The notes below the pieces were generated by a model that saw nothing but the letters and a program-made list of their open reading frames with translations, made no database searches and was not told the DNA's origin. Position numbers and translations under genes: made by a program. Below, one piece after another: positions 719 through 46,461 of a stretch of 48,151 nucleotides of DNA. The DNA lies in assembly GCA_021731295.1 (NCBI GenBank), contig JAKFXQ010000006.1, positions 1 through 48,151 on the forward strand, in the 5' to 3' direction. The first letter of the stretch is position 1; every line of letters begins with the position of its first letter. The stretch comes from Patescibacteria group bacterium. GTDB lineage: Bacteria > Patescibacteriota > Minisyncoccia > Phycocordibacterales > UBA2100.

Positions 719-747
719 TTCGTATCGCGATAGGGTAGAATAGCCGA

Positions 748-1341
748 ATGCTTGTTATTGATGTTGAAGCTTCGGGCACCGAAGCACATAAACACTCTAT
801 TGTTTCCGTGGGAGCTTTAGATTTGGCGAACCCAACAGATCGCTTCTATGAAGAATGTCGCGTGTGGGACGGGGCACATATTATGGACGACGCGCTCAAA
901 GTGAACGGCTTTACCAAGGAGCAGATAACCGACCCGAAGAAGCAAAGCGAGGCTGACTTAGTGCACGCGTTTCTCCTGTGGAGTGAAAAGATTCCAGACC
1001 GAACGCTCGCAGGACAGAACGTCTCATTTGATAGAGATTTTGTGAAGTACGCGTGTCAGCGAGCAGGGCACACAGACTGGCCCTTTGCCTATCGCACAAT
1101 AGATACGCACACGCTCTGCTGGATGCACATGATTCATCGTGGACTCCAGCCGCCCGTAGACCCGCGGCATCGTCGCTCGGCGCTCGACTTAGACGCGGTC
1201 TTAAACTACTGCGGCATTCCCGAGGAACCGAATCCTCACAATGCGCTCACCGGCGCACTCTCGCACGCAGAAGTCGTTTCTCGTCTCCTCTATGGCCGCA
1301 AGCTTCTCCCAGAGTTTGAACAATATGCCATACCCTGGTAA
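748..1341 (+). CDS. 3'-5' exonuclease, DEDDh/DnaQ-like
   Basis: MLVIDVEASGTEAHKHSIVSVGAL (Exo I), NVSFDRDFV (Exo II), HNALTGALSHAEVVSRLL (HxxxxxD, Exo III). Confidence 0.8.
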   Translation: MLVIDVEASGTEAHKHSIVSVGALDLANPTDRFYEECRVWDGAHIMDDALKVNGFTKEQITDPKKQSEADLVHAFLLWSEKIPDRTLAGQNVSFDRDFVKYACQRAGHTDWPFAYRTIDTHTLCWMHMIHRGLQPPVDPRHRRSALDLDAVLNYCGIPEEPNPHNALTGALSHAEVVSRLLYGRKLLPEFEQYAIPW

Positions 1342-2086
1342 CGACACGTCGTGGGGTTCTGTTGCGGAGTGGTACGCAGGGCATCTTGAAGGAGGCGATA
1401 CGTATCATGCGAAAGTGGTCTTGCCGCATGTGCTGCGCGTTTTGAAAGGAGGGCAAGGGATGCGCGTACTCGATCTCGCGTGTGGCGAAGGAGTGATGAC
1501 GCGGGCACTCGTGGAAACTGGCGCAGACGTTGTTGGCACGGATGTCGCTCCTGAACTTATCGTCCGAGCCACCGCAAAGGGAAGTGGCACCTACCATGTC
1601 GCGTCGGCGGACGCGCTCTCATTTGCCACAGACGGTGAGTTTGATGCAGTCGTCTGTGTGCTTGCGCTTCAGAATATTGAACGGCCGGAAAAAGTCGTGG
1701 ACGAAGTCGCGCGCGTACTGAAACCGGGCGGACGATTTGTTATCGTCTTGAATCATCCCATTCTGCGCATTCCGAAGCGATCGTCGTGGGAGTTTGACCA
1801 GCGCGTCGGACTGCAGTATCGCCGTCTCGATGGCTACTACATGCCAAGCAAAGAACGCATGCTCGCCCATCCGTCGCAGGGGGAGAAGGGAGGCTATACA
1901 TGGTCGTTCCATCGGCCACTGGAAGTGTACGCAAAACTTCTATTCAATCGCGGATTCGTCATGACGGCACTTGAAGAGTGGCTGTCGCATAAAACAAGCG
2001 AGAAGGGTCCGCGCAAGGCCGCAGAGGACAGGGCGCGCAAAGAATTTCCCATGTTCATGATGCTGGAGGCGCGTCGAGAGGCATAG
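1325..2086 (+). CDS. Class I SAM-dependent methyltransferase
   Basis: MRVLDLACGEGVMTRALVETGADVVGTDVAPELI motif I/II and ARVLKPGGRFVIVLNHP; start set to ATG 1325, overlapping the upstream exonuclease by 17 nt. Confidence 0.85.
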   Translation: MPYPGNDTSWGSVAEWYAGHLEGGDTYHAKVVLPHVLRVLKGGQGMRVLDLACGEGVMTRALVETGADVVGTDVAPELIVRATAKGSGTYHVASADALSFATDGEFDAVVCVLALQNIERPEKVVDEVARVLKPGGRFVIVLNHPILRIPKRSSWEFDQRVGLQYRRLDGYYMPSKERMLAHPSQGEKGGYTWSFHRPLEVYAKLLFNRGFVMTALEEWLSHKTSEKGPRKAAEDRARKEFPMFMMLEARREA

Positions 2087-2147
2087 CTGCGCGTATTTTT
2101 CTTCCGTGGTAGCGTGAGGGCTGGTTCCTTTGAGGAGGAGGTGTCCT

Positions 2148-2558
2148 ATGCGGACTAACGCGTTTCTTCTGTTTCTTGCTGCAATGACGATACCGTCTGC
2201 GGCACGTCAGGCGCCAGAAGAACCCATGCGAGGGATTTTCTGTTACGAGCGAGACATTGCGGAGCACATCGCAGCACGGTTGCGCAGTAGGCCCGGTGTG
2301 CGCGGCCACGAGCGAGCGCGGGTGATGATGAGTATCCACAATGGACGACGCAAAATTCCGTCGTTCATTCATTGGCGCAGTGAAGGTCCCACGATGCGAC
2401 CGACGTGTTCATGCGAATCCAAGCATGTACGGGCCGTCTCGCAAGCCGCGGCGAACCATGTCGTTACGGTCGAAGAGGAAGTCTACATTCCGGTGCTCGA
2501 CTTCCGCGTGCCGATTGAACAGTTCCTCGTACATCGCTCGGCGTCCGTGTGCCAATAA
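2148..2558 (+). CDS. Hypothetical exported protein
   Basis: Strong SD (gaggaggag) before ATG 2148, signal-peptide-like N-terminus MRTNAFLLFLAAMTIPSAA, downstream terminator. Confidence 0.6.
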   Translation: MRTNAFLLFLAAMTIPSAARQAPEEPMRGIFCYERDIAEHIAARLRSRPGVRGHERARVMMSIHNGRRKIPSFIHWRSEGPTMRPTCSCESKHVRAVSQAAANHVVTVEEEVYIPVLDFRVPIEQFLVHRSASVCQ

Positions 2559-2575
2559 GCGAAGATGAAATAGGT

Positions 2576-2599
2576 AAGGCCCGCCCTCGTGCGGGCCTT
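2576..2599 (+). terminator. Intrinsic terminator-like hairpin
   Basis: AAGGCCCGC-cctcgt-GCGGGCCTT perfect stem. Confidence 0.65.
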
Positions 2600-2631
2600 G
2601 TCGTATTGTGAGGGAAGACTATAGTGCCCGT

Positions 2632-3375
2632 ATGTGGCCTCTATTTCCGCTTATCGCGGTAACCGTCGCGCTACTGGTTATTATTCTTAGGCAGGTTAAC
2701 CAGTATGAACGCGGTCTTTTATTCACGATGGGTCGATTCTCGCGAATCATCGAACCAGGATGGCGCATCGTCATTCCAGTGTTTCAGTCTTTGACCAAGG
2801 TGGATATGCGCGTCAAAGCGGTGGACGTACCGGAACAGAAAGCAATCACCAAAGACAACATCTCCGTCGGCGTGAACGCCGTCATCTACTATCGGGTCAA
2901 CGATGCGTCGAAGGCGATTCTCGAAGTTGAAAACTTTATCTGGGCCATGAGCCAGCTTGCGCAGACAACGATGCGTAATGCGGTCGGTGAAGTAGAGCTC
3001 GACGACCTGCTCTCTCAGCGCGACAAGATTTCCGCTCGCATCCAGGGTGTCGTCGATGCCGCGTCAGACCCATGGGGAATCAAGGTCTCGAACGTTGAAC
3101 TCAAAGACATTGCCCTGCCCGCAGATATGGAGCGCACGATTGCAAAGCAAGCGGAAGCCGAACGCGAAAAGCGCGCCGTCATCATTCGTGCAGAAGGGGA
3201 GGTGGTAGCAGCAGAGAACATGGCCAAGGCCGCGACCATGCTTGCGGCGGCTCCCGGGGCGCTTCATTTGCGCACACTGCAGTCCATCAACGACATAAGT
3301 TCGGATCAGTCCAACACAATTGTCTTTGCGATGCCGCTCGAAGTTTTGCGCGCGCTCGACAAGTTGGGGAAGTAG
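2632..3375 (+). CDS. SPFH/Band 7 (slipin/stomatin-like) membrane protein
   Basis: N-terminal TM then VNQYERGLLFTMGRFSRIIEPGWRIVIPVFQSLTKVDMRVKAVDVPEQKAITKDNISVGVNAVIYYRV. Confidence 0.9.
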   Translation: MWPLFPLIAVTVALLVIILRQVNQYERGLLFTMGRFSRIIEPGWRIVIPVFQSLTKVDMRVKAVDVPEQKAITKDNISVGVNAVIYYRVNDASKAILEVENFIWAMSQLAQTTMRNAVGEVELDDLLSQRDKISARIQGVVDAASDPWGIKVSNVELKDIALPADMERTIAKQAEAEREKRAVIIRAEGEVVAAENMAKAATMLAAAPGALHLRTLQSINDISSDQSNTIVFAMPLEVLRALDKLGK

Positions 3376-3399
3376 ATTCGATTGTGCACGTTTGAGTCA

Positions 3400-3418
3400 G
3401 ACCGCCGTGTAGGCGGTC
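3400..3418 (+). terminator. Intrinsic terminator
   Basis: GACCGCC-gtgta-GGCGGTC followed by tttctc. Confidence 0.7.
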
Positions 3419-3516
3419 TTTCTCTAGGGCAGGCGAGAATACAGCATGTCGCACAATATATCTTTTGCGACACTTAGGCAGAGGGAGAACTGGGGGACCG
3501 GCCGTATACTGAGCCG

Positions 3517-4182
3517 ATGTCCACGTCCTACGCAGCGCGCGTTCGCTCCGTCCTCTCCCCTGATGAGCGTCGGCTTTTTCGCTCGCTTAATTCTCCGGAA
3601 CGTATCCAGGACTTCCTCGATTCTGTGCCGACAAATTTTGAATTATCTGGTGAGACAAATTATTCGCCGCGCTCGCTCATCCGTACGAATCTCGCGCACT
3701 GTTTTGAGGCGGCAGTTTTTGCTGCGGCCGTTTTGGCGTTCCACGGACACAAGCCGCTGCTTATGGACTTCGCGACAGGTTTAGATGATGAGGACCACAC
3801 CGTCGCATTGTTCATACGTGATGGTTTGTACGGCGCGATAAGCAAAACGAATCATGCGGTCGTAAAGTATCGCGATGCGATATACAGGACGCCGCGAGAA
3901 CTGGCGATGAGTTACGCGCACGAGTACTATTTGTACGACGGGCGTAAATCCCTGCGCGCGTACTCAGCGCCATTCAATCTGTCTAGGTTCCCGCCAGAAA
4001 AATGGATTACATCGGGGGAGTCGCTTAACGGGCTTATGACTTCCCTTTCTCAATCTCGGTATTTCGAGATTGCACCGGCGCGTGCGATACGACGCGTACG
4101 AAAAGCCAGTGCAATTGAACTCAAGGCACTAACGCTTACGGAATGGAAGGATCCGCGACCTAGAGATAGTCGAGCGGGTTGA
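3517..4182 (+). CDS. Hypothetical protein, possible transglutaminase-like cysteine protease fold
   Basis: LIRTNLAHCFEAAVFAAAVLAFHGHKPLLMDF ... DDEDHTVALF ... KYRDAIYRTPREL has Cys...His...Asp order and spacing of transglutaminase-like enzymes. Confidence 0.55.
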   Translation: MSTSYAARVRSVLSPDERRLFRSLNSPERIQDFLDSVPTNFELSGETNYSPRSLIRTNLAHCFEAAVFAAAVLAFHGHKPLLMDFATGLDDEDHTVALFIRDGLYGAISKTNHAVVKYRDAIYRTPRELAMSYAHEYYLYDGRKSLRAYSAPFNLSRFPPEKWITSGESLNGLMTSLSQSRYFEIAPARAIRRVRKASAIELKALTLTEWKDPRPRDSRAG

Positions 4183-5434
4183 GATACGCGCCAAGTGGCG
4201 AAACTGGAATTTCAGCGTTTGCGCACGGTGTCACGCGACCCGTAGATTCGCCCAACTTCATGACGCGCACGCCATTCGATGCGTAAACGGAAAAATGGAG
4301 ATGCGGGCCGGTCGAATAGCCCGTATTTCCGGAGTATCCGAGAATTTGTCCAGTCTTCACTTCGTCACCACGCGAGACATTACTCTGCGATAGGTGCGCA
4401 TACAGGCTCGAGAGGCCGTTTGAATGTTTGACCAGTACCCAGCGACCGTAGGAGTAACAGCCACGTATTGAATCCGTATTACCAGAGCCTTCGACCGTAC
4501 CGGAAAGCGCAGCCTTAACGGGCGTGCCAATGGCGGCGCGGAAATCTACCCCGTTGTGGCCCTTGCCACTGTACGCGCCCGATTTTGCAAATTCAGTGTT
4601 ACCAAAGTACTGCGTTATTTTTACCGCATCGAGTGGCCAACGAAGAATGCCTTTTCCAGCGGGCGGCAATCGGGACGGGTCCAGTGTGTATTCAAGTCGC
4701 GATTCCAATTCATTAAGCGTCTGCTCGAACACCTGACGCGCCGCCTGTTTATCCGCCAAGAGCTTCTGATACGAGGACTCCTGATTCTTTGTCTGCGTGA
4801 GTAGTGCGGCCTGCTCGCGCCGGTTAATTTCCAGTGATGTCTGCTGACCAACGAGCTTTTGCCGCTCCCCTTCCAATTCCTTTTGTTTTTTCACAGAGGC
4901 ATCTCTGTCAACAGTCAGTTCTTCCTTTATTGCCGTAACCTCAACGATATGTTCGGAGACAGCGTCCTGAAATCGTTTGACAGTCTCCACCTCATCCCAG
5001 ATACGCGAGATAGACCCACTGCCTAAAATATGCTCGGCGAGTGTTATCTCATCCGCTTCACGGAGTCGGTTTATCGCGGCAGCTATCGCTTGGTTGTCTT
5101 TCTCGATGGTTACTTGTTTGTCAGAAATGGAACCATCTAGTGTCTGAATCTGTAGTAAGAGGCTTTCTATAGAATTCTTCGTGACGCTGATTTTCGCGTT
5201 CAACTGTTTACGCTGAAGATCGAGCGTATTTAATGTACTTTGCAGCGTCTGCTTCTTCGAACCGATATCCGTAAGCTGGCGCTCGTACTGTTCGATTTCC
5301 GCGTTCAACTTGTCGATTTCGGCGGCGTGCGAGGAAATCTGCTCGCGCAGTTCATCGGCCGACTGGCCCGTTGCTACCAGCGGTAGCAGACCCAGGATGC
5401 AGACGATACAGAGCACGCTCGGGATACGAGACAT
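4160..5434 (-). CDS. EnvC-like coiled-coil M23 peptidase (murein hydrolase/activator)
   Basis: Signal peptide, long coiled coil, then GHNGVDFRAAIGTPVKAALSGTVEG ... YAHLSQSNVSRGDEVKTGQILGYSGNTGYSTGPHLHFSVY. Confidence 0.9.
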   Translation of the reverse strand: MSRIPSVLCIVCILGLLPLVATGQSADELREQISSHAAEIDKLNAEIEQYERQLTDIGSKKQTLQSTLNTLDLQRKQLNAKISVTKNSIESLLLQIQTLDGSISDKQVTIEKDNQAIAAAINRLREADEITLAEHILGSGSISRIWDEVETVKRFQDAVSEHIVEVTAIKEELTVDRDASVKKQKELEGERQKLVGQQTSLEINRREQAALLTQTKNQESSYQKLLADKQAARQVFEQTLNELESRLEYTLDPSRLPPAGKGILRWPLDAVKITQYFGNTEFAKSGAYSGKGHNGVDFRAAIGTPVKAALSGTVEGSGNTDSIRGCYSYGRWVLVKHSNGLSSLYAHLSQSNVSRGDEVKTGQILGYSGNTGYSTGPHLHFSVYASNGVRVMKLGESTGRVTPCANAEIPVSPLGAYLNPLDYL

Positions 5435-5438
5435 ACAC

Positions 5439-6761
5439 CTATGGCAAGAGCTCCATGGCTTTAGTGACGCGTGAGAGTGTCTCAGCCTTACCGATGAGTG
5501 CCGCTATGGTGAATGGATCAGGCGAACGGTCTCGCCCGGAGAGGGAGTAGCGCAGTGGCCACAGAACGGCCCCTCTCCCCTTTTCTGTCGCATAGTCCCA
5601 CAGAGCATTTTTCACGTCGTCCGCAACGAAGTGCTCCGGGAGCGCGTCAATCGCTTTCGCGGCAACCGTGAGGTGCTCGCGTGCACTCGCGGCGTCGGAC
5701 TTCTTATCCGGTATACGGCCCGCATCGAGCGTTGGTGGTGCGAAAAAGAAGTCGAGCTCACCGGCTGCTATCGTTGCATCGAGGTCTCCCCAGAGAGAGA
5801 TGCGTTCTTTGATGATAGGGAGGAGTGTACGAATCAGTGACTCGGGCCACTCAGGGTGCGCTCTGTGTACTCGCTCGAGCACATTTCGAAGATACTCCTC
5901 TTCAGGCACGCGCACCAAATATTCGCGATTGAACCACGTCAGTTTGGTCTCGTCGAAAACTGCCCCAGCATGATGGACGCGGTCCAAGTCAAATGCAGTG
6001 ACGAGTTGAGGGAGCGAGAAGATTTCTTGCTCCGTCCCAGGATTCCACCCCAAGAGCGCGAGATAATTAATCATCGCTTCAGGGATGAATCCGCGGTCAC
6101 GATATACCGTAACGCTCGCGCCGTGCTTTCGCTTTGAGAGCTTGGAACGATCTGGCGCTAGAATTAGGGGCAAATGACCGTAGGCCGGTCGCGGCATGCC
6201 GAGGGCCTCTTGAATGAGAATCTGTCGCGGGGTATTCGAAATGTGTTCCTCCGCGCGCAAAACGTGCGTGACGCCTGCGTCGCCGTCATCTGCCACGACG
6301 GCAAAATGATAGAGCGGGTCGCTTAACGAACGTGCAATCACGAAGTCGCCAAGTTCTGTTGTATCGAAGGTGACATCACCCCGAATCAGGTCCGTAAACG
6401 TTACGCTCGTCCCTGGATTGCGCAGACGAACTACTTCTACCGTTCGCGACGCGTCATCTTTGGCCGGCTCTTTCGATACATATGCCTTGTCGCGGTTCAC
6501 TAAATCCGTGAGGAGTGCGCGGTGACGCTCTAAATGTTCCGACTGAATATAGCGTTTGTCCGGAAGGATGCCGCACCACTCGAAATCACGCCAAATAGCA
6601 TCAACCCACTCCGGACGATTGCGCTCCTTGTCGGTGTCCTCGATGCGCACGAAATAGGTGCCTCCATGATGCTTTGCATAGAGATAATTGAACAGCGCTG
6701 TTCGGACAGTCCCGATGTGCATCTCCCCTGTGGGGCTTGGCGCAATGCGAGTAACGACCAT
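5439..6761 (-). CDS. gltX: Glutamate--tRNA ligase
   Basis: MVVTRIAPSPTGEMHIGTVRTALFNYLYAKHHGGTYFVRIEDTD; KLSKRKHG motif. Confidence 0.96.
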   Translation of the reverse strand: MVVTRIAPSPTGEMHIGTVRTALFNYLYAKHHGGTYFVRIEDTDKERNRPEWVDAIWRDFEWCGILPDKRYIQSEHLERHRALLTDLVNRDKAYVSKEPAKDDASRTVEVVRLRNPGTSVTFTDLIRGDVTFDTTELGDFVIARSLSDPLYHFAVVADDGDAGVTHVLRAEEHISNTPRQILIQEALGMPRPAYGHLPLILAPDRSKLSKRKHGASVTVYRDRGFIPEAMINYLALLGWNPGTEQEIFSLPQLVTAFDLDRVHHAGAVFDETKLTWFNREYLVRVPEEEYLRNVLERVHRAHPEWPESLIRTLLPIIKERISLWGDLDATIAAGELDFFFAPPTLDAGRIPDKKSDAASAREHLTVAAKAIDALPEHFVADDVKNALWDYATEKGRGAVLWPLRYSLSGRDRSPDPFTIAALIGKAETLSRVTKAMELLP

Positions 6762-6762
6762 A

Positions 6763-7902
6763 TTACTTTGGCTCGTGCTCGAGTCCTGTTTCGAGAAGTA
6801 TGAGTGCGGCTTTGCGCGCTGCATCTTGCGCCGAGAACTTGTGTGCAGACTCGGCCATCTTTGCGCGCATCTCCGGCGCGTTAATCAGGCGATCAATCTC
6901 TGCCGAGAGCACGTGCGGCGAGAGGTTGTGCTGTTCAATAACGAGACACGCGCCACGTCGCATATAGGAAAATGCGTTCTCAGTTTGGTCGTGTGAGACG
7001 TCGAGTGGAATGGGAATGAGAATGGCTGGTATCCCCCACGACGCGACTTCAAAGATGGTGCCGGAACCTGCGCGTGCTACGACGACCTCACTGATGCCCG
7101 CAGACATGCGCAGTGCCAACGTATTCAAGAGACCGAATACACGGTAGCGGTTCTCATTCGGGTGGTCGTGAAGAATTTCCTTCGATATACCTTTGACTTC
7201 ATCAAGATTAGCAGCGCCTGTTTGGTGAATGATGTTGTATCGAGACACGAGGTCCTTCAGCGCATCAAGCACGGTGTTGTTGAGCACTTGTGCCCCTTGA
7301 GAACCGCCCATAAAGAAGATGGTAGGCACAGTCTGATCCAACTTGAGATACTCATGACCGCCCTCCTTTGCTGGCATTCGGATCTCTTCGCGAATAGGAT
7401 GCCCTATGGTCGCAATTTTCTCACGATACTTTTCTGGCAGTTTTGCTGCTGCGTCCGGATGAGCGACACCAATCCACTTGGCAAACTTCGCCGACCAACG
7501 CGTGACGCGTCCGGGCTCGGCATCGGCGTCGTAGATGATGACAGGAATGGCGAGTATCCGCGCGGCATAGAGTGTTGGAAACGCTGCATAGCCGCCCGTC
7601 GAAAAAACGACATCAGGATAGATGTTAAACAGCTGGACTATGGACTGCAGAATCCCCCACCCTGTTCGAATGAAGTTAAGTGGGTTTGGAATACCATGCC
7701 GAGACAACTTTCCAGCCGGACTTGACCGATACTCTATATCATGTTCTGCGAGAGTTGCGGGGTCAAAGGGCTTGGGCCCAACGTAAAACAGCTGCGGCTC
7801 TACCAGGTGCTTTTCCTCTGAAAGGCGCTCAATAGCCTCTGCAATGGCGATTATGGGGTAGAAATGACCTCCGGTACCCCCACCCGTGAAAACGATGCGC
7901 AT
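6763..7902 (-). CDS. murG: UDP-GlcNAc:undecaprenyl-PP-MurNAc-pentapeptide GlcNAc transferase
   Basis: MRIVFTGGGTGGHFYPIIAIAEAI and GGSQGAQVLNN, RAGSGTIFEVASWGIPAILIPIP. Confidence 0.95.
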   Translation of the reverse strand: MRIVFTGGGTGGHFYPIIAIAEAIERLSEEKHLVEPQLFYVGPKPFDPATLAEHDIEYRSSPAGKLSRHGIPNPLNFIRTGWGILQSIVQLFNIYPDVVFSTGGYAAFPTLYAARILAIPVIIYDADAEPGRVTRWSAKFAKWIGVAHPDAAAKLPEKYREKIATIGHPIREEIRMPAKEGGHEYLKLDQTVPTIFFMGGSQGAQVLNNTVLDALKDLVSRYNIIHQTGAANLDEVKGISKEILHDHPNENRYRVFGLLNTLALRMSAGISEVVVARAGSGTIFEVASWGIPAILIPIPLDVSHDQTENAFSYMRRGACLVIEQHNLSPHVLSAEIDRLINAPEMRAKMAESAHKFSAQDAARKAALILLETGLEHEPK

Positions 7903-7918
7903 GGGGGCATTTTAGCAA

Positions 7919-9013
7919 CTATTTGCTCGCCCGCGAGATGTTCAGGAGAATACCTGCCGCGCCGAGCGACATGAGGATGGCACTACCTCCCTGACTCATG
8001 AAGGTAAGCGGTATGCCAGTAAGCGGCGCGAGGCCCACCATGGCTGCGATATTAATGAACGCCTCCGCGACGAGATAACTAGCGAGGCCGACCGCGGTGA
8101 GTGCACCGAACATATCTGGTGCGCGGGCCGCGACTTGAAAGCCGCGCAACACGAAGACCAAGAAGAGTCCGATAATAGAGATCGAGCCCACGAAGCCGGT
8201 CTCTTCTGCGGCAACGGCAAAAATAGAATCTCCCATCGGTTCTGGCAGGTAGGTGAACTTCTGAACACCTTGACCAAAGCCGCGACCGAAGAGGCCACCG
8301 GAACCGATGGCAATAAATGATTGCTGAATCTGGTAGCCCTCACCTTGCGGATTGTCTTCAGGATTCATGAATGTCGTGAGGCGGTCTAACACGTGCGGGC
8401 GCGCAAAAGCGACAGTGGCGAGAAGTACGAGCCCGAGTAGTCCAAAGAGTGCCACGTCGCGCAGTCGTGCACCTGCCGCGATAAATACGGAAAATGCCGC
8501 GACGACAATAATACCGAGGGTACCGATGTCTGGCTGTAACAACAGAATGAGCGTAGGAGCGGCGATGATGCCCGCAAACGCGGCAGGTCCACGCCATGTA
8601 CGTACGTCGTCGCGCAGTGTTGAGAATATCGCCGCACTAATAAGCACGACGGCAATCTTTAGCGTCTCTGATGGCTGAAATGAGAAACCAAAAAAGTCTA
8701 TCCAGCTGGTGCTGCCATGGAGGGTAACGCCGATGTGCGGCACGAAGACGAGACACGTGAATAGGAGCGATGCCGCGAAAAGGTGCGGCGCCCAATATCG
8801 CCAGACTCGATAGTCGATCATGTAGGCCGCGGAAAGAGCGATGAGACCGAGTCCGACACCGAGGACTAGATGATTGAACACGACGGAGGACGTGTGCGTT
8901 GCTCCGCGAGCCAGGAGTCCAAAGGCAGCGGAGGTAAATATGGCACCACCGCCCACAAGGAGTAGTGCAAGTGTCCCCAAGAGGATTTTGTCCACGTGCT
9001 TTCCCCTTCCCAT
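7919..9013 (-). CDS. ftsW: FtsW/RodA/SpoVE family lipid II polymerase
   Basis: Polytopic protein; HIGVTLHGSTSWIDFFGFSFQPSETLKIAVVLISAAI, FAVAAEETGFVG, GLAPLTGIPLTFMSQGGSAILMSLGAAGILLNIS. Confidence 0.92.
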   Translation of the reverse strand: MGRGKHVDKILLGTLALLLVGGGAIFTSAAFGLLARGATHTSSVVFNHLVLGVGLGLIALSAAYMIDYRVWRYWAPHLFAASLLFTCLVFVPHIGVTLHGSTSWIDFFGFSFQPSETLKIAVVLISAAIFSTLRDDVRTWRGPAAFAGIIAAPTLILLLQPDIGTLGIIVVAAFSVFIAAGARLRDVALFGLLGLVLLATVAFARPHVLDRLTTFMNPEDNPQGEGYQIQQSFIAIGSGGLFGRGFGQGVQKFTYLPEPMGDSIFAVAAEETGFVGSISIIGLFLVFVLRGFQVAARAPDMFGALTAVGLASYLVAEAFINIAAMVGLAPLTGIPLTFMSQGGSAILMSLGAAGILLNISRASK

Positions 9014-9017
9014 ACGG

Positions 9018-10079: not shown

Positions 10080-10095
10080 GGCGGTAAGTATACCC

Positions 10096-11575: not shown

Positions 11576-11577
11576 AC

Positions 11578-12312: not shown

Positions 12313-12331
12313 GCACCAATCCTAGCACGGG

Positions 12332-14204: not shown

Positions 14205-14207
14205 GCA

Positions 14208-15414: not shown

Positions 15415-15434
15415 AGCGAGATTCTAGCAGAGAC

Positions 15435-22580: not shown

Positions 22581-22607
22581 GTCAATCCTAGCACGGCTAA
22601 GCTCTAG

Positions 22608-23669: not shown

Positions 23670-23721
23670 CATGCGCATTATAGGTGCGACGTACGCCTGC
23701 GCAAGCAGTGGCGTTTATGCG

Positions 23722-31668: not shown

Positions 31669-32814
31669 CTATGACGCGTTTGTGTACAACGACGTAGCAG
31701 CAATAGAGGTCTCCAGCCAGCCATCAACGTGAGCGTCATCCTGGATGACGCGACCGCGCACTGCTGCATGGAGCGGAGACACAGTGAGGGGCTGGGATGT
31801 CACGGTGAACTGTGCAAAATCGAGTCGCGAAAATACGTGTTCAAGCCACGGAGAGAGATCCGGCTGCGCTAAAATAAGACACGTGTTCGGAAGCCGGTAG
31901 ACACTCGAAAGTGTCGCGAAACCGTCGCCAAATGTTTTGACGAGCAGTGGTTCAACCGCGGCGAGTTTTGTCTTAATCTCCTCACATGCAGCAGTACTAC
32001 AGGAGTCCTTTGCCGCGAGACGAATGAGTGTGCGGGTCTCTTCTAGTGAGCCTGTGCCCGCGATTTTGGAGAGGACGCTGCCTGTTCCAATGGGCACTGT
32101 CGCATGCGCCGCAATTTCATCATCGCGCAGCGAAATGCAGTGGCTCTTCCCTTCCTCGATATCGATGACGAGGTGATACGGAGAGTCCGAAGCTTCGCGC
32201 AACAGATGCATAAGATCGCGTGCGAAACTGCGGTAGAGCGGTGTGTGCCCTGGTAGTGCGGTGTGTAAAGCCTCGTCAATTCGGCGCCTAGCGCTCTCGG
32301 TGATGCCGCTACGAAACACGGAGACGCCGAGCGACTCGCCAAGTTTTCCTACTGGCTTACCCGTCGGATACATATTTACGTGCACCCGAGTGACGAGGGA
32401 TTCAAGGACAGTGCGGTCGGACTTTGGAAGCAGTGCCACAGCCTGCTTGGCTGTCTCCGCGATGAGGCCATCAGTTACGATTTGCGGCTTAGGAAACGTG
32501 ACTGTCGCGTGCGCCGTGTCAGCCTCCGCAAAGGTCGGGCCAAAATGCACGTCAACGGTGCTTAACGGTGGGCGCTTTTGCGCGTGGTCCGACTTGCTGT
32601 AGCGCTCAAGAAAAGCAACGAGCACCTCCTGAAGCATTGATGCTGTTTGCTGCTCCAGTTGCTCTACGGTGCGCTCTGCCGTGGGCAATTCCTTCCGGTC
32701 AGAGAGCAGAACTTTTGGCTTGTCCTGCATGCAGACAGCGGCAACTGAAACAGCGCCGCCCTCGACGTGTACAAACAATACTGGTGGAGACGACTGCTTC
32801 CGAAAGAGCGCCAT
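31669..32814 (-). CDS. Divergent PilM/FtsA-like actin-fold protein
   Basis: Ordered ATPase-like segments LFVHVEGGAVSVAAV, HLVIDIEEGKSHCISLRDDEIAAHATVPIGTGSVLSKIA; located next to the baseplate-J-like gene. Confidence 0.55.
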   Translation of the reverse strand: MALFRKQSSPPVLFVHVEGGAVSVAAVCMQDKPKVLLSDRKELPTAERTVEQLEQQTASMLQEVLVAFLERYSKSDHAQKRPPLSTVDVHFGPTFAEADTAHATVTFPKPQIVTDGLIAETAKQAVALLPKSDRTVLESLVTRVHVNMYPTGKPVGKLGESLGVSVFRSGITESARRRIDEALHTALPGHTPLYRSFARDLMHLLREASDSPYHLVIDIEEGKSHCISLRDDEIAAHATVPIGTGSVLSKIAGTGSLEETRTLIRLAAKDSCSTAACEEIKTKLAAVEPLLVKTFGDGFATLSSVYRLPNTCLILAQPDLSPWLEHVFSRLDFAQFTVTSQPLTVSPLHAAVRGRVIQDDAHVDGWLETSIAATSLYTNAS

Positions 32815-32841
32815 CGTGCGGATTATAGCATCCGAAATCGG

Positions 32842-34828: not shown

Positions 34829-35017
34829 ATGATGCTTGTGTACGCACTCGTTTTCGCGAGTCTCGGCACGTTCATCGGTGTCTGGACATGGGTGGATCGT
34901 CGCCACTACGGCTACAGTGTCCTCGCGAGCATGCTGTGGGTCTTAGGCCTCGGTATCAGTATACCGTCGGCACTTCTGCTCATCATAATGGCATTCAGAT
35001 GGCTCACGGGCCTCTGA
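34829..35017 (+). CDS. Small two-TM membrane protein
   Basis: AGGAGG at 34821-34826, hydrophobic 62-aa ORF, terminator immediately downstream; ATG 34832 may be the true start. Confidence 0.65.
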   Translation: MMLVYALVFASLGTFIGVWTWVDRRHYGYSVLASMLWVLGLGISIPSALLLIIMAFRWLTGL

Positions 35018-35023
35018 CTTTCG

Positions 35024-37084: not shown

Positions 37085-37137
37085 GGGCGCCACTCTACTC
37101 CTCTACCGAGGATTTGACAAAAGACCGTTGCGTGCCG

Positions 37138-37938: not shown

Positions 37939-37962
37939 CGCGGCAGTATAGCATCCGCTCTT

Positions 37963-38448: not shown

Positions 38449-38450
38449 GT

Positions 38451-38978: not shown

Positions 38979-39033
38979 ACGGCGGTTATGGATTACAGGA
39001 TATACGGCAATTGTAGTCTCACCCTATACCCTG

Positions 39034-39873
39034 TCAACGCACTGATTCGGAAAACGGAGTACACAGACGTGTCGCCTCATCCATGACACGGTCGATATGG
39101 TGCGGACGCACTCCGGATTCATGTAACACGCCCGGTACGCGCACGTCACGGCAGAGGACAATGTTCTTCTCCAAGAGCGTTCGCTTCTCGCCGTCGGTAA
39201 GTGAAGTAAGGCAGGTCAAAGGATGCACCTTCGATTCCTCTATCATGTGCTGAAGACCCTTGTCACGCGGATAATCCCACGCGATAAGCGGCAAATTCGA
39301 ACATTGTGCATAGTGAATGGCATTGCGCGTGAAGCTGGTGTTGGTTACCAACCACCCCTCATCCACTCGGGAGTGCGGGTCCGGAGCCTTTTTCAGGTCT
39401 TCGTAGCGCGCAAATACGTAGAGCGCGTCCTTGATGTCGGTGCGGCCGCCAGGGTCATTATGAAACTTCGCTTCGACCCCGATACGTCTCCCGTCCTTTT
39501 CCGCGAGCACGTCTACCTCGTGTGGCGCGCATCGGCCATTCAGCGCTACACCGGTTCGAGTTTTCCAGCCTTGTGCCGAGAGCACGGACGCAAAAAAACG
39601 CTCAAACGGATATCCCGACGGGCCGAGCGCGAAGACTGCTCGCTTCATTGAGTACCGTGCGGCAACCGGCGTCTCATCGCCCTTTTTGAGGAGGTCAAAG
39701 GCGTGACGATAAATGTCCTCCGTAGTCATTCCTTCCTTGAGCTCATGAAGAATGTGAGTGACGATTTTCTGTCGAGCGTCGGCAGAGGCGCCGGCGCGAG
39801 AGAGGGACGCGTCGAGTTTGGATTCCTGGAAAGCTTCCAGTTCACCGTCTGCTTTGGTAACGAGCACGCTCAT
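39034..39873 (-). CDS. ATP-cone domain fused to restriction-endonuclease-like (PD-(D/E)XK/Mrr-type) domain
   Basis: MSVLVTKADGELEAFQESKLDASLSRAGAS (ATP-cone) then RTGVALNGRCAPHEVDVLAEKDGRRIGVEAKFHND (E..D..//EAK). Confidence 0.8.
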   Translation of the reverse strand: MSVLVTKADGELEAFQESKLDASLSRAGASADARQKIVTHILHELKEGMTTEDIYRHAFDLLKKGDETPVAARYSMKRAVFALGPSGYPFERFFASVLSAQGWKTRTGVALNGRCAPHEVDVLAEKDGRRIGVEAKFHNDPGGRTDIKDALYVFARYEDLKKAPDPHSRVDEGWLVTNTSFTRNAIHYAQCSNLPLIAWDYPRDKGLQHMIEESKVHPLTCLTSLTDGEKRTLLEKNIVLCRDVRVPGVLHESGVRPHHIDRVMDEATRLCTPFSESVR

Positions 39874-39877
39874 GTCG

Positions 39878-40279
39878 TTATTGTACACGGTGCTCGATGA
39901 CGTGAAGGTCGAGTGGGTCGCCGTCAAACGTTGCAATGAACTGGACATTCTCCGGCGCAAACGTAACGACGCGGAAGCGTTTCAATGCTCTCGTGCGGGG
40001 GCAGTCGCGGTACGGCTCCTGCCACGTCGTGAACTCGATGCGGTACGTGGAGGTCGCTGCTTCGAGCTCGACAACACGCGCGCCGAGCCCATGACATTCT
40101 GATGGAACCACGAGCGTTCCCGTGAGTGTATGCGTTGAGCCCTCAACAGCGTCGAAGGCGATGATGGTGTCGTCGAGCGGCCGCTGTACAGAAATACTGC
40201 CCAAAAAAAGCATAGAGGGGTACGCGATGACAACCGTCGCAGTCGCCATCCAAAGCGTCTGCCACCAGAATTCGTCCAT
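39878..40279 (-). CDS. Hypothetical single-TM protein
   Basis: Complete ORF with N-terminal TM and a well-formed TATACT-N6-ATG start. Confidence 0.6.
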   Translation of the reverse strand: MDEFWWQTLWMATATVVIAYPSMLFLGSISVQRPLDDTIIAFDAVEGSTHTLTGTLVVPSECHGLGARVVELEAATSTYRIEFTTWQEPYRDCPRTRALKRFRVVTFAPENVQFIATFDGDPLDLHVIEHRVQ

Positions 40280-40303
40280 CGCTACAGTATACGAGGAGAC
40301 CGC

Positions 40304-41335
40304 CTACGCGGAGCGGTTTTCAACAGAGATGATGCCGCTGCCAATTAGTTCGTTTCCGTTATATACGGCGCACGTTTGCCCTGGCACCGCGAGCGCGGGC
40401 TCCTCAAACTGCACGAGTGTACCGTCGCACTGCGCAGGCACTGTGTCCCCATGGTAGCGAAGCACTGCGTCGTAACGCCGGTCTGCTTCTGGCGCAGCAA
40501 ACCAGTGTGCATCGCGCAGCCGAACGCTCTGTACATACGCGTCACGCATGTCGGCAGATACAGTAATCGTGTTAGTGGTGACGTCGATACCCACCACGTA
40601 CAGCGGCGTTCTGCTCGCCGTCGAAAAACCATGACGCTGGCCGATGGTAAACAGGTGTGCACCGTCATGTGTCCCGATTACTGAACCACTTCTGTCCATG
40701 ACGCAGCCGGGGCGCGGCGGAATGTATCGCGAGAGAAACTCCGGCATCGAAATATCGCCAACGAAACAGAGACCCTGACTGTCGCGCTTCTGTGCGTTCG
40801 GTAGTCCGCGTCGCGCTGCTTCTGCGCGCACAGCCGATTTCTCCATATGGCCAATGGGAAACAGTGTCTGCCCAAGTGACTGTTCGGCAACTCTGGCGAG
40901 AAAGTAGGACTGGTCTTTGGACGAATCGTGCGCGCGAGTGATGCGCAGCGGATGTGAAGAGAGTTGTGCGTAGTGTCCCGTCGCAATCTTCTGCGCTCCA
41001 TTAGCACGTGCCCACGTAAGAAATGCATCGAACTTAATATGACGATTGCACAGAATGTCTGGATTCGGTGTCTCGCCCTGCGCATACCCCTGCAGCATGT
41101 CGGCTATAACAAGGCGCTCGTATTCCTCGGATAAATCGACCTCCGTAAAGGGAATGCCAAGACACGCCGCGACCCGCAGTGCATCCAAGCGGTCCTCGCG
41201 CCAGGTGCACTCAAGAAACTCAGGGCGCCAAATGCGAATGAAGCATCCGGTAACGTCGTGCCCCGCGTCCATGAGTAACGCAGCCGAAACGGCGCTATCC
41301 ACCCCGCCTGAAAGGCCCACAAAAACTCGTGACAT
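40304..41335 (-). CDS. mnmA: tRNA-specific 2-thiouridylase MnmA
   Basis: VFVGLSGGVDSAVSAALLMDAGHDVTGCFIR; ETPNPDILCNRHIKFDAFLTWA; GHYAQ; SQGLCFVGDISMPEFLSRYI. Confidence 0.96.
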   Translation of the reverse strand: MSRVFVGLSGGVDSAVSAALLMDAGHDVTGCFIRIWRPEFLECTWREDRLDALRVAACLGIPFTEVDLSEEYERLVIADMLQGYAQGETPNPDILCNRHIKFDAFLTWARANGAQKIATGHYAQLSSHPLRITRAHDSSKDQSYFLARVAEQSLGQTLFPIGHMEKSAVRAEAARRGLPNAQKRDSQGLCFVGDISMPEFLSRYIPPRPGCVMDRSGSVIGTHDGAHLFTIGQRHGFSTASRTPLYVVGIDVTTNTITVSADMRDAYVQSVRLRDAHWFAAPEADRRYDAVLRYHGDTVPAQCDGTLVQFEEPALAVPGQTCAVYNGNELIGSGIISVENRSA

Positions 41336-41372
41336 GCCTGTTTTTCGCCGTGATTGTCTCTTCTGTCAAGCG

Positions 41373-42416
41373 CTAATCGATATAGATTCGCTTCTTGGTG
41401 AGATGCTCTTCGTATGTTTTTGAGTAGTAGGTAACGCCTGCCCTATCCGCGAGGTAGAACAGGTTACCCTCGTCAATAGGTGTAACCGCTGCACGCAGAG
41501 ACGAGAGACCCGGATTCCCTATCGGCGTTGGTGGCAGCCCCTTGTGTACGTATGTGTTGTACGGGTCACTTTCGTCGCGCAAGTTTGCTCGGGTGAGTGT
41601 AAACGTTGAGCGACCGATAGAGTACAAAAACGCGGCATCCACCTGTAGCAAGATATCGTTATCTAATCTGCGCCACAAAACGCCTGCTATCATGCGCCGG
41701 TCTCGAAAGATACTCGCCTCCTTTTCAAGAATGGACGCGAGCGTTACAACCTCCGAGAGCGGGCGGCCGAAGGAAACGATGTCGCCCATAATAGTGCCGA
41801 CCTTATTGTCGAAATTCTGCCGCATCGCCAGAATGACGCTCTCCTCCGTTGCATTCGGCAGGAAGAAGTATGTATCAGGAAACAAGTACCCTTCATACGG
41901 CTGAGCCTTCTCGAAGAATCGCGCGGCGTCTATACGCGTGAGCTCTTCCGCCAAGAGTTCGCCTATCTCCAGCGTCGTGGCCCCCTCGGGAATTCGTATA
42001 CGCACGGGCTCCAGTCCGAACTGACCGCTCGTAACAGCATTCGCGATAGCGAATAGGGACTTGGGCTCGTCAAACTGGTAGTCACCGGCGCGCACGGTGT
42101 TTGCGCGGCCCAAGATGATGATTGCACTGCGTAATGCGAATGCGCTACGAACAACACGCTGGTCCTCGAGTTCCTGACTTAATGCATCAAGCGATAGTCC
42201 GGAAGAGATCGACACGAGTTCACCTGTCGGAAATAACTCGGGCGGACTAATGTAGCGAGAGAATCCGACATAGCCCGCGACCATGATAAGTATCAGAATG
42301 AGAAGGTTCCGACGATTTGTCGTCGCGTCCCATATCACCTCTTGGCGCGAAATCCACGCGCGCGCTTCGATGACGTAGGGACGTATTGTATGCATGAGGT
42401 GAGAGACGTGCTTCAT
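41373..42416 (-). CDS. mltG: Endolytic transglycosylase MltG (YceG family)
   Basis: YEGYLFPDTYFF, VVTLASILEKEASIFRDRRMIAGVLWRRLDNDILLQVDAAFLYSIG, YNTYVHKGLPPTPIGNPGLSSLRAAVTP. Confidence 0.94.
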   Translation of the reverse strand: MKHVSHLMHTIRPYVIEARAWISRQEVIWDATTNRRNLLILILIMVAGYVGFSRYISPPELFPTGELVSISSGLSLDALSQELEDQRVVRSAFALRSAIIILGRANTVRAGDYQFDEPKSLFAIANAVTSGQFGLEPVRIRIPEGATTLEIGELLAEELTRIDAARFFEKAQPYEGYLFPDTYFFLPNATEESVILAMRQNFDNKVGTIMGDIVSFGRPLSEVVTLASILEKEASIFRDRRMIAGVLWRRLDNDILLQVDAAFLYSIGRSTFTLTRANLRDESDPYNTYVHKGLPPTPIGNPGLSSLRAAVTPIDEGNLFYLADRAGVTYYSKTYEEHLTKKRIYID

Positions 42417-42417
42417 A

Positions 42418-43848
42418 CTACATTGGCAGATTCGGTGGCGGCTCGGATTTCGTTGATGGAATGCGCTGGAGGCCTGGGGATTTCACCGTTGCTCCCGGCG
42501 GGTGCCAAATAGAAGCGAGAGATTCCGCAGACATGATGTAATGTGGCGTTCTCCACGGAGGATAGAACCATGAGCGTCGGCGATACGCATCCAAGAAGCG
42601 CCGCGTGGTCATACGAAAGCGAATCCCCTGGAAATCCTGCCACGGATAGTCGAATGGACCGTGCCAGCGAGTCGGCTTGAGCCAGTTTGTGTTCTGATTC
42701 GCAAACGGCAAGAAGCAGTAGCGAATGTTACTGCGAATCTCGGGACGATACTCGTTGAGTTTTGCGAAGTAACAAAGCCGGATTCCCGTGAAGAAGAGCC
42801 GCTTACCCATGTGGCGTTGTATCGCAAGAATTTGCTCATTCTGGACCCATGTCGGTCGCGGGAAGCCGTACTTACGTTCATCATCATCTGGCGCATCCTC
42901 CTTCCCAGGGTTTAGCGATGCTGTGCGACGAATCTCGGCCACCTTCTCGTTGCACATTTGTAGGAACTTTCGTTCAGCGCTTCCCTTGCAGGAGGTGACA
43001 ATAATCTGTATCCATGCCTGCTCACTTCCCTTTAACGTACTCAAGATTTCAATAACCTGTGCCAGAGGGTCAACTTTGAACTCCTCCTTCGGGTCTTTAT
43101 CCAGCTCATAGTCGAGATATGTGCGAATGGGGAGCACGCCCGCTTTCTCATAGTCGAGCACGATGTCATTCGCGAACAGATCGTACTCATTAGGATCAAA
43201 CGTAAAGCGGGAGGCGTAATCTTCGACCTCTACAATCTCAACTTCTGGGTATTGTGCGTATATATGGGCTTCAAGCACGTCTTTCATACTGCGCCAGCAC
43301 CAGATGTAAAAGTGCACTTCCCCTCCGATAGAAGCAATCTCAAACGAGAAAAATGCGCGCATTTTTCCAAAATACCCGCGGTCTATAAAGGTTGTTTCTC
43401 CCCCCGACGTCCATATAGCCATGAATGCTGCCTCCATGGCGCGGGGAGATTTCGGCACCTCGCGCGGAATTCGCACCTCAAGAACCACAGTGTTTCTCGT
43501 CGCAATAAACACAGACCATGTGTACCACTGCCAAATGCGCACAAACATAACAGCACCCAAGACGGGTGCCCAAATTGGAAACGCGAGAATTATCCACGAG
43601 ATGGCTAGGGTGAAGAAATTCGGCACCATCGTAAGGACGACGGAGAGCATAACGAAATACATTGGGAACAGGACGAGTGGTCGCGAAAACCCCCAGTCGG
43701 CAACCCATGCAACGAACTTCGAAAGTGTAGAGAGGTGCTCCACCGCGTGCGGCACATGTAGTCCGCCAAAGGAAAAGATGTAGCCAAAAACGGATCCGAT
43801 ATCGGAACCTATTTGCCCAAACAGAGAGGGCTTCGGATCATCCGCCAT
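42418..43848 (-). CDS. Large CPR-type membrane protein resembling the N-terminal part of type IV secretion/conjugation-associated ATPases
   Basis: TM-rich N-terminus, KSPRAMEAAFMAIWTSGGETTF, C-terminal SLASIWHPPGATVKSPGLQRIPSTKSEPPPNLPM; no Walker A motif. Confidence 0.55.
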   Translation of the reverse strand: MADDPKPSLFGQIGSDIGSVFGYIFSFGGLHVPHAVEHLSTLSKFVAWVADWGFSRPLVLFPMYFVMLSVVLTMVPNFFTLAISWIILAFPIWAPVLGAVMFVRIWQWYTWSVFIATRNTVVLEVRIPREVPKSPRAMEAAFMAIWTSGGETTFIDRGYFGKMRAFFSFEIASIGGEVHFYIWCWRSMKDVLEAHIYAQYPEVEIVEVEDYASRFTFDPNEYDLFANDIVLDYEKAGVLPIRTYLDYELDKDPKEEFKVDPLAQVIEILSTLKGSEQAWIQIIVTSCKGSAERKFLQMCNEKVAEIRRTASLNPGKEDAPDDDERKYGFPRPTWVQNEQILAIQRHMGKRLFFTGIRLCYFAKLNEYRPEIRSNIRYCFLPFANQNTNWLKPTRWHGPFDYPWQDFQGIRFRMTTRRFLDAYRRRSWFYPPWRTPHYIMSAESLASIWHPPGATVKSPGLQRIPSTKSEPPPNLPM

Positions 43849-43908
43849 TCACGCATGATACCAAGCACATCGAGCGATGCGGCCTCGTATCAACATCGGG
43901 CGAAGTGG

Positions 43909-44925
43909 TTAGGAGAGCGCGTACTTTCCGTCTGACTGGCGAGTGAATGAACCACCTTGCAGATTGACGATGACCGTTGCGTCCTTTACGTAGCGTTCAC
44001 GCTTCACACGCTCGATGATGTCAGCACGAGCAAGTGGCCCATCTTTCTTCAGGATGTTCGCAATGACGTCACGGACGACGCCCGGCTGGTAGCCCCACTC
44101 CTTGAGTGCGTAGAGGCCACGACCAACGAGGACAAAGCGTTCGTCCTTGATGAGTTCGTTGTGCGTCGTTGCGGGGTGCGCCTCGCGTTCGAACAGCTTC
44201 TCGATGTTCTCCGCAACTTCAGTGAAATGCATTGGAGAGCCGTGTCGCTTGAGTGTAAGAAACGCGAAGTCACGAGTGTTCTTGATGTTGACGTGCGGAG
44301 AGTCCGCATGGCCCCACTCGCCGAGCGGATTGCGATCTACCTTCTTGGAGGTTCCCAACCAACGGCGCAACGTAACTTGGTCACGCTCTCGCACACCCTC
44401 GTTCTTGAGTGCGTCGGTAAACATTTCCATGAACTGCTCTTCAGGAGTCAGTTCGTTTGGGTCCATGGCGTCGTGCAGTGCGCGCAGTGCACGGGTTACC
44501 GAATCAGAAAGCGACTGGTCAACGTGCCAGCGTGCGTGGAAGTCGGCCTCCTCTTTGCGGAAGGTGAAATGATGACCGACGGTCAAGAGAAACAGTACGT
44601 GGTTACGGTCGGCGTCCGTCTTCGGCAAGGTCGCAAGAATATCGTGCTCAGCAGCAAGTGCGCCAATGTCGTTCATCGCGCTCTTGAGACGCTCCAGCGA
44701 CTCTGCGTGCTTCGTATAGGCGTCAGACTCGCGAATCAGCCCAAGCCCATGGCTCTCAATCTGGCGAATGCGTTCACGAGTAATGCCGTAATCTTGGCCT
44801 ATTGCCTCAAGAGTACGGCGCTCGCCCGTGCCGAGACCGAAACGGTGCAGGAGCACAGAACGCGAGCGTTCTGGCAACTGGGCAAGGAAGTCTTTCGTAA
44901 TAACTTTCGGCGAGAAGGTCAACAT
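43909..44925 (-). CDS. Sigma-70 region 4-like HTH fused to HARE-HTH domain protein
   Basis: LPERSRSVLLHRFGLGTGERRTLEAIGQDYGITRERIRQIESHGLGLI (region 4.2) and PMHFTEVAENIEKLFEREAHPATTHNELIKDERFVLVGRGLYALKEWGY (HARE-HTH). Confidence 0.85.
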   Translation of the reverse strand: MLTFSPKVITKDFLAQLPERSRSVLLHRFGLGTGERRTLEAIGQDYGITRERIRQIESHGLGLIRESDAYTKHAESLERLKSAMNDIGALAAEHDILATLPKTDADRNHVLFLLTVGHHFTFRKEEADFHARWHVDQSLSDSVTRALRALHDAMDPNELTPEEQFMEMFTDALKNEGVRERDQVTLRRWLGTSKKVDRNPLGEWGHADSPHVNIKNTRDFAFLTLKRHGSPMHFTEVAENIEKLFEREAHPATTHNELIKDERFVLVGRGLYALKEWGYQPGVVRDVIANILKKDGPLARADIIERVKRERYVKDATVIVNLQGGSFTRQSDGKYALS

Positions 44926-45075
44926 GATGATTTGACGGCCCGTGGCCTGTGTGGCGTACGTTGTATCAAATGGGCAGGGTGCTGTCAACAAACCCCGGGT
45001 CTATGCACAGGTTATCCGCTCTCGGGCACTTGCGGGCCCCAAACGGTATGCACGAGCGCTTGCTACAATCCGGCG

Positions 45076-46461
45076 ATGACCACGGCTCGCGTGCCGCCGC
45101 ATGACCTCGACATGGAACGAGCGCTCCTTGGTGCGCTTATGCTCGATCCGAGCGCCATTTACGAGGCCTCTGACATCGTTGTACCCGGTTCATTCTATGC
45201 ACCGAAACATCGCACCATTTTTGATGCAATGCTGTCTCTGTATCAGAAAAGCGAGCCGATTGATTTAGTAACTGTTTCGACGAAACTGAAGGAAAAGAAA
45301 ACGCTTCAGGATGTTGGTGGTGCTGCGTATCTGTCTGAACTTGTTTCGAGTGCCGCATCACCGGGGTCAGCGCGACACTATGCGCACACAGTGCAGGCGA
45401 AGTTTATTCTACGTTCCCTGATTGAAGCGGCGTCAAAAATTGGGGAACTTGGTTTCGAGGAGGCGCGAGACGTGGAGCAGGTATTGGATGAGGCGCAACA
45501 GATTGTCTACGCTGTATCTAATAAGACTTCGGGACGGGCCTTTAGTGCCATACGAGACGAGCTGACAGCTGCCTGGGAGCGTTTGGAGGCATTACAGAAC
45601 CATGACGACACTCTGCGTGGTGTTCCCACAGGCTTCCCTGCCCTGGATTCGCTGCTCTCGGGTCTTCAGAAGTCTGACCTTATCATTCTGGCAGCTCGCC
45701 CCTCCATGGGAAAGACGACGCTGGGGCTAGACATCGCGCGACAAGCCGCAATAAAGCACAAAGTACCCGTGGGGTTCTTTTCTCTGGAAATGAGCTCACA
45801 GCAGTTGGTTGATCGTATGCTCGCAGCACAGGCCGGCGTCAATTCCTGGAAGCTCCGCACCGGCAAAATTTCAAAGGATGATGACTTCGAGCGGCTCCAA
45901 CATGGGCTCGAGGAGTTGAGCGAGGCACCGATATACATTGACGACAAATCCTCTAACACCGTGCTCTCTATGCGGGCCATTGCGCGCCGTATGAAAAGCG
46001 AGAAAGGGCTGGGACTTATTGTCATCGACTACCTCCAGCTGATTCTGCCGACCATTCAGGGGGCAAATGTGTCCATGGTCCAGCAAGTGACGGAAATCTC
46101 GCGCGCACTCAAGGGTCTCGCACGTGATTTAGACGTGCCGGTCTTAGCACTCTCACAGCTGTCGCGTGCGGTCGAGCAACGCGGTGGACGCCCCCGCCTC
46201 TCGGACCTGCGAGACTCAGGTTCTATTGAGCAGGACGCAGACGTAGTCATGTTCATCCACCGCGAGGACATGATGGGTAATCGCACGGAGAATGAGAAGA
46301 ATAATGTCGCAGAGATACTTGTAGAAAAGCACCGTAACGGCCCCGTCGGCAAAATTGACCTTATTTTCGATGAGACAACGACAACGTTTAAGTCCCTTGA
46401 GAAGGCTAACTTCGGTGACTTCTCGCAGGCGCCCGTTTCCTCCGGCGGTGAGCCGTTTTGA
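45076..46461 (+). CDS. dnaB: Replicative DNA helicase DnaB
   Basis: PPHDLDMERALLGALMLDPSAI; LIILAARPSMGKTTLGLDIARQAA; VIDYLQLI; LSQLSRAVEQRGGRPRLSDLRDSGSIEQDADVVMFIHRE. Confidence 0.97.
   Translation: MTTARVPPHDLDMERALLGALMLDPSAIYEASDIVVPGSFYAPKHRTIFDAMLSLYQKSEPIDLVTVSTKLKEKKTLQDVGGAAYLSELVSSAASPGSARHYAHTVQAKFILRSLIEAASKIGELGFEEARDVEQVLDEAQQIVYAVSNKTSGRAFSAIRDELTAAWERLEALQNHDDTLRGVPTGFPALDSLLSGLQKSDLIILAARPSMGKTTLGLDIARQAAIKHKVPVGFFSLEMSSQQLVDRMLAAQAGVNSWKLRTGKISKDDDFERLQHGLEELSEAPIYIDDKSSNTVLSMRAIARRMKSEKGLGLIVIDYLQLILPTIQGANVSMVQQVTEISRALKGLARDLDVPVLALSQLSRAVEQRGGRPRLSDLRDSGSIEQDADVVMFIHREDMMGNRTENEKNNVAEILVEKHRNGPVGKIDLIFDETTTTFKSLEKANFGDFSQAPVSSGGEPF

Follow-up and report, generated by a model that had tools for sequence, protein, structure and literature searches.

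Candidate leaderless genes with extended −10 promoters in a patescibacterial lineage that has lost the anti-Shine–Dalgarno sequence

This work concerns a 48,151-nucleotide stretch of DNA from a Patescibacteria group bacterium (GenBank assembly GCA_021731295.1, contig JAKFXQ010000006.1, positions 1 to 48,151 of the forward strand; hereafter the window), and the −10-like TANNNT hexamers that stand a few nucleotides before many of its start codons. These boxes have the form of extended −10 promoter elements, and the genes behind them are very probably leaderless, with a predicted transcription start on the A of the start codon, in a lineage that has lost the anti-Shine–Dalgarno (anti-SD) sequence of its 16S rRNA. 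Leaderless transcription of about 28–33% of the genes is the best reading of the sequence data. We consider the combination of leaderless genes with clade-wide loss of the anti-SD to be the larger finding. The genome, taken as contigs totaling 998 kb (~1 Mb; 54.8% G+C), has 966 usable genes, 728 of which have an upstream gap of more than 10 nt (referred to below as genes with upstream room). Genes were predicted from dicodon coding potential only, so that the choice of start codon was blind to promoters and to Shine–Dalgarno (SD) sequences.

A sequence-only reading of the window had proposed pervasive leaderless transcription, and a genome-wide −10 peak at a fixed distance from the start codon as the check on it. 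This peak was found. Counting as the gap the nucleotides between the TANNNT hexamer and the start codon, and taking the mean over gaps 15–49 as background, 173 of the 728 genes with upstream room (23.8%) carry a box at gap 6, against a background of 1.27% (binomial p ~ 5e-160), and a further 7.8% carry one at gap 7. Internal ATGs, used as a control, gave 0.4% at gap 6 both in-frame (n = 5354) and out-of-frame (n = 7135). The signal is also seen when gene calling is left out altogether: TGNTANNNT-N6-ATG occurs 104 times, compared with 15 times when the pattern is reversed; of the 104 sites, 86 coincide with predicted starts. Summed over gaps 5–8, the excess above background corresponds to 33% of the genes with upstream room and 28% of all genes. 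A mixture model assigned a box to 39% of the genes with upstream room, with 25% at gap 6, 8% at gap 7, 3% at gap 8, and nearly none at gap 5 or less; the latter is as expected if truncation of the start codon is not tolerated. When run on internal ATGs, the mixture model collapsed to plain composition, and this variant was left unused.

The aligned gap-6 promoters show the consensus T (55%), G (73%), N, T, A, t/c/g, A, A/C, T, and between this box and the start codon lie six bases rich in G+C. The most common hexamers are TATACT, TAGAAT, TACAAT, and TACACT. A TG ahead of the hexamer is present at 84 of the 173 gap-6 genes compared with 31 of the 555 others. The earlier remark that a −35 element is not obvious agrees with the genome as a whole, where TTGACA-like matches are not enriched (23% versus 21% elsewhere). 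Operon-internal genes, which the sequence-only reading had put forward as a negative control, turned out to be positive themselves (8.3% at gap 6). The class richest in gap-6 boxes consists of genes located 11–30 nt behind a co-directional neighbor (37%), and abutting genes still reach 8%, meaning that short intergenic spacers are often private leaderless promoters. Contamination was considered as the source of the mixture of SD-led and leaderless genes and was rejected because boxes occur on nearly all larger contigs; the main doubtful contigs are C32, C33, and C35 (9.5–10.4 kb), which have no box in 10, 4, and 6 genes, respectively.

All 16 hexamers originally reported for the window, 11 at gap 6 and five at gap 7, are present at exactly the positions given, and 12 of the 16 associated starts were also picked by the blind gene finder. 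On the plus strand, the gap-6 boxes are TAGAAT at 736–741 (ATG 748, a gene with an exonuclease domain), TATAGT at 2620–2625 (ATG 2632, a Band 7/SPFH gene), TATACT at 3505–3510 (ATG 3517), and TACAAT at 45,064–45,069 (ATG 45,076, the replicative helicase gene dnaB). On the minus strand, gap 6 is found for TAAAAT at 7909–7914 (murG, ATG 7902), TAGGAT at 12,319–12,324 (scpA, GTG 12,312), TAGAAT at 15,421–15,426 (trpS, ATG 15,414), TATACT at 37,945–37,950 (ATG 37,938, a PD-(D/E)XK nuclease gene), TACAAT at 39,880–39,885 (ATG 39,873, encoding an ATP-cone/Mrr-type protein), TATACT at 40,286–40,291 (ATG 40,279), and TATCAT at 43,855–43,860 (ATG 43,848). The five gap-7 boxes, all on the minus strand, are TATACT at 10,087–10,092 (mraY, ATG 10,079), TAGGAT at 22,585–22,590 (ATG 22,577), TATAAT at 23,677–23,682 (dnaJ, ATG 23,669), TATAAT at 32,822–32,827 (ATG 32,814), and TAGAGT at 37,092–37,097 (ATG 37,084, a prolyl oligopeptidase gene). 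For dnaJ, the blind finder settled one codon away, and the box lies at gap 4 from the adjacent ATG 23,672. The starts at 32,814, 37,084, and 39,873 are less certain, being alternative starts of their open reading frames (ORFs), for which the finder chose 32,730, 37,027, and 39,888, respectively.

The boxes are conserved. Eighty related loci, gathered through a scan for MraY that placed the lineage in Candidatus Kaiserbacteria/Paceibacterota within the Candidate Phyla Radiation (CPR), show the same profile, with 24.8% of genes at gap 6. At orthologous starts the hexamer is retained while its flanks drift, and control distances give counts of 0–5. A TANNNT at gap 6–8 was found in 17 of 27 orthologs of the gene at 748, 13 of 24 orthologs of the gene at 3517, 40 of 71 for murG (control positions, 2–4), 36 of 77 for mraY (1–5), 22 of 71 for scpA (2–3), 44 of 53 for trpS (2–4), and eight of nine for dnaJ (at gap 6). 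Two window genes without a box (5434 and 6761) have orthologs that mostly lack it too. Taken together, the position of the boxes, their extended −10 form, their spacing, the genome-wide excess, and this phylogenetic footprint support the proposal of pervasive leaderless transcription, as far as sequence comparison can.

Three other explanations of the boxes were weighed. The pattern could have arisen artificially from the way start codons were chosen or from the A+T content of the sequence around them, and it is true that some starts in the first account may have been picked by their box, three of the 16 differing from the blind choice. Blind starts nevertheless give the p-value quoted above, the count made without gene calls is 104 against 15, and orthologs keep the box only at that distance; we regard this explanation as the least credible of the three. 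It is almost as improbable that TANNNT acts in the mRNA as a translation-initiation signal, e.g., as an A/U-rich binding site for protein S1, rather than as a promoter. The genome and the class do encode an S1-like protein with four S1 domains, and in Bacteroidetes the identity of upstream nucleotides modulates initiation without an SD (PMC6847099). The motif, however, is a sequence-specific extended −10 element with TG at −15/−14 and a fixed spacing, and it is followed by G+C-rich rather than A/U-rich sequence.

A third possibility is that the boxes are promoters whose transcripts begin a few bases away from the predicted site, giving near-leaderless mRNAs with leaders of 1–5 nt. The spacing is indeed not perfectly fixed, gaps 7 and 8 being occupied in addition to gap 6. 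Yet the sharp peak at gap 6 matches the usual distance between a −10 element and the transcription start, and gaps of 5 or less are nearly absent, which leaves this version unlikely, though less so than the other two. Leaderless transcription from extended −10 promoters thus remains our preferred reading. RNA polymerase would use the extended −10 element (TGN-TANNNT) without a −35 element and start transcription 7 nt past the −10 box, on the A of the start codon, producing an mRNA that has no 5′ untranslated region and whose 5′-terminal AUG would be engaged by the ribosome. Genes packed closely behind another gene would either have a leaderless promoter of their own or, lacking an SD, begin directly at the stop codon of the preceding gene; translational coupling is the probable mode in that case, with U or, less often, C at −1.

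The 16S rRNA of this lineage has a changed 3′ end, a partner feature absent from the sequence-only reading. In the sole 16S rRNA gene of the genome (3′ end at G000:C3:9665-11123, L004), helix 45 is intact, whereas the tail reads GGAUUCAUUCCUAAC in place of GGAUCACCUCCUUU; the 13 nt of tail that follow helix 45 contain no CCUCC, and no CCTCC was found downstream of them up to the processing stem. The change extends over the order, where the anti-SD region has gone from GGAUCACCUCC to, e.g., GGAAUAUUUCAA. In a survey of 118 genomes of the order, which yielded ~77 usable 16S 3′ tails, CCUCC or even CUCC was found in 0 of the 77 tails with an order-type helix 45. The tail consensus is GGA(A/U)UA(U/A)UUCAA, and duplexes of these tails with the SD consensus average −3.2 kcal/mol, compared with −16.5 kcal/mol for the canonical tail. 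Three genomes carry, as a second or sole 16S tail, one with a canonical helix 45 and anti-SD (G096:C68, G111:C36, and G315:C6). G096 and G315 hold an order-type tail besides the canonical one, and the canonical tails in all three are probably from contaminant contigs. Leaderless mRNAs would suit a lineage of this kind, because SD pairing would no longer be possible and leaderless mRNAs need none.

SD enrichment is weak, and the earlier statement that the boxed starts have no clear SD was largely right. GGAG, GAGG, or AGGA occurs at −15 to −8 in 11.7% of genes, against a background of 6.9% and compared with 57% for a set of 42 E. coli genes. GGAG or GAGG in the same interval was found in none of the 173 gap-6 genes (partly forced, as the hexamer fills −12 to −7) and in 71 of the 555 others. 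For genes pooled over the order, SD words stand at 5.9% versus a background of 4.1%, and operon-internal genes are at or below background; pooled gene finding over genomes of mixed G+C is weak, and its groups A–D are indicative only. A substitute SD matching the new tail was also looked for, and UUGAA/GAAU-type words were not enriched before genes outside TAGAAT boxes.

Co-directional genes that abut their upstream neighbor (spacer ≤10 nt) and lack a box have SD words at below background frequency and a marked preference at position −1, where U is found in 68%, C in 23%, A in 4%, and G in 4% of cases (pyrimidine, about 92%). TAATG-type overlaps number two, compared with 37 cases with one spacer base, and abutting genes of the order loci show a similar bias (U 56%, C 28%). 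From these figures we infer that such genes initiate by coupling and favor a pyrimidine at −1.

How far leaderlessness is tied to anti-SD loss was assessed over a wider set of genomes. In the matches listed for the sampled CPR, nearly all lineages beyond the class retain CACCUCC, apart from a few variants. Within the class, tail states assigned by eye show the anti-SD kept in 40 genomes, degenerate in 28, and lost in 44. Averaged by family, the leaderless-pattern excess has medians of 47 per Mb in anti-SD-lost and 32 per Mb in anti-SD-kept families (p = 0.012, deeper kinship uncorrected). The highest pattern count in the class sample belongs to G482 (254 versus 22 for the control).

Several observations weigh against the explanation preferred here. 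Anti-SD-bearing CPR also show the leaderless signal (14% at gap 6 in the pooled sample), which is therefore not a consequence of anti-SD loss alone. Counts of AGGAGG-N4-8-ATG show no difference between anti-SD-lost and anti-SD-kept genomes, the reversed-pattern control being imperfect here; a clean anticorrelation between AGGAGG counts and anti-SD state was sought and not found. Within the genome itself, a weak GGAG excess persists, amounting to about 36 genes, and fewer than half of those with upstream room show a clear box or SD. Loss of the anti-SD is thus associated with leaderlessness without being required for it, and leaderlessness is older or wider than the loss and increases with it.

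The translation machinery was surveyed along with the tails. IF3 was detected in 39 of 41 order genomes, and bS21, a short divergent protein that is easily missed, was above cut-off in three of 41, including the genome studied here. Era was above cut-off in none of 161 class genomes, whatever their tail state, which is consistent with the published loss of Era in most CPR. Era binds GAUCACCUCC (PMC10582724), and we infer that loss of Era may have relaxed selection on the 16S tail.

Across CPR, the anti-SD core CUCC can pair with a GGAG located downstream, and changed cores often co-change with their partner (UUCC/GGAA, CUCU/AGAG). Noncanonical CPR tails are paired in 14 of 51 cases versus 3.3 expected, with a maximum of eight in 300 shuffles (relatedness remains in the shuffles). 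Within the order, UUCC is accompanied by GGAA and UUCA by UGAA (C: 8+3 of 14 versus 2.3 expected; A: 29+2 of 43 versus 21.5). A thermodynamic test of the tail hairpin did no better than shuffles, the direct covariation test being the positive one. The covariation suggests a conserved hairpin of the 16S precursor that sequesters the anti-SD, and this hairpin may have kept the tail arm in place while the sequence of the arm drifted. On balance, and with less assurance than for the boxed genes themselves, we favor a wider scheme in which the order and several sister lineages have ribosomes without an anti-SD, the conserved UUCAA/UUCC tail still forms a hairpin with the downstream GAA, initiation proceeds via leaderless mRNAs, coupling, and a −1 pyrimidine, and CPR represent intermediate steps in the loss of the SD mechanism.

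Actinobacteria and Deinococcus-Thermus generally retain the anti-SD and SD-led genes. Leaderless “TA-led” genes have been described in these groups, with a TANNNT about 10 nt before the start in 20–46% of genes (Zheng et al. 2011, PMC3160421); no CPR phyla are among the groups listed there with leaderless genes. The present genome shares with them the TANNNT signal, a G+C-rich composition, and the sequence-based definition, and differs in its strong extended −10 TG and its few SD genes. Bacteria without an anti-SD include Chryseobacterium, Elizabethkingia, Riemerella, Blattabacterium, Mycoplasma, Carsonella, and Hodgkinia (Amin et al. 2018, PMC6107228), and natural anti-SD loss is the subject of a further report (PMC6107199). 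As in the former cases, CCUCC is missing after helix 45; those bacteria have also lost SD enrichment, which is weak here. Unlike in those cases, a whole CPR order is affected, its replacement tail being conserved, together with further families of the class. CPR groups were not found by name in the text of PMC6107228. In Flavobacterium johnsoniae the anti-SD is still present, most mRNAs have leaders, and A is favored at −3 (PMC6847099). It shares with the present genome the near-absence of SDs and a role of start-site context, the marked context here being the −1 pyrimidine at internal genes.

Mammalian mitochondrial mRNAs are leaderless or near-leaderless. The small-subunit rRNA of mammalian mitochondrial ribosomes has no anti-SD (PMC10582724), a combination also predicted here, although in a bacterial genome of about 1000 genes with bacterial IF3 and bacterial promoters rather than in an organelle. 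A search of the open-licence literature, a scope that falls short of proof, returned no report of leaderless genes or anti-SD loss in CPR, Patescibacteria, Parcubacteria, or Saccharibacteria. Leaderless genes and anti-SD loss are each already known, and an order-wide CPR case uniting the two was not found in that literature.

The SD helix belongs to textbook bacterial translation, and the natural losses of the anti-SD on record come mainly from certain flavobacteria, mycoplasmas, and insect symbionts. Here, a large environmental class has the anti-SD kept, eroding, or gone by order, and leaderless promoters are commoner in lineages without it, so that the way in which a bacterium gives up the SD can be studied by comparison and by experiment. 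Gene-calling programs and expression vectors built on the presence of an SD may place starts wrongly or not work in such organisms; the leaderless boxes could be used for correcting start annotation.

Two window genes with a strong SD had been set against the boxed genes as a second class. Their AGGAGG sequences are real: one precedes a small ORF at 2148–2558 (plus strand) that has no Pfam family and was not called by the codon model, and the other precedes a 62-residue ORF at 34,829–35,017 (plus strand). Rather than forming an ordinary second class, these resemble a minor remnant, part of which may be foreign. Comparison of the ORF at 2148 with plasmids gave no match. Genome-wide, about 38 AGGAGG-led ORFs lie outside gene interiors; 20 of them were not called by the codon model, many of these being small and several having signal-peptide-like starts. 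The AGGAGG-led ORFs may be horizontally acquired genes that keep donor-type SDs in a genome without an anti-SD. One of them, C31:2440, weakly resembles hypothetical proteins of Sinorhizobium (36% identity, E 5e-4).

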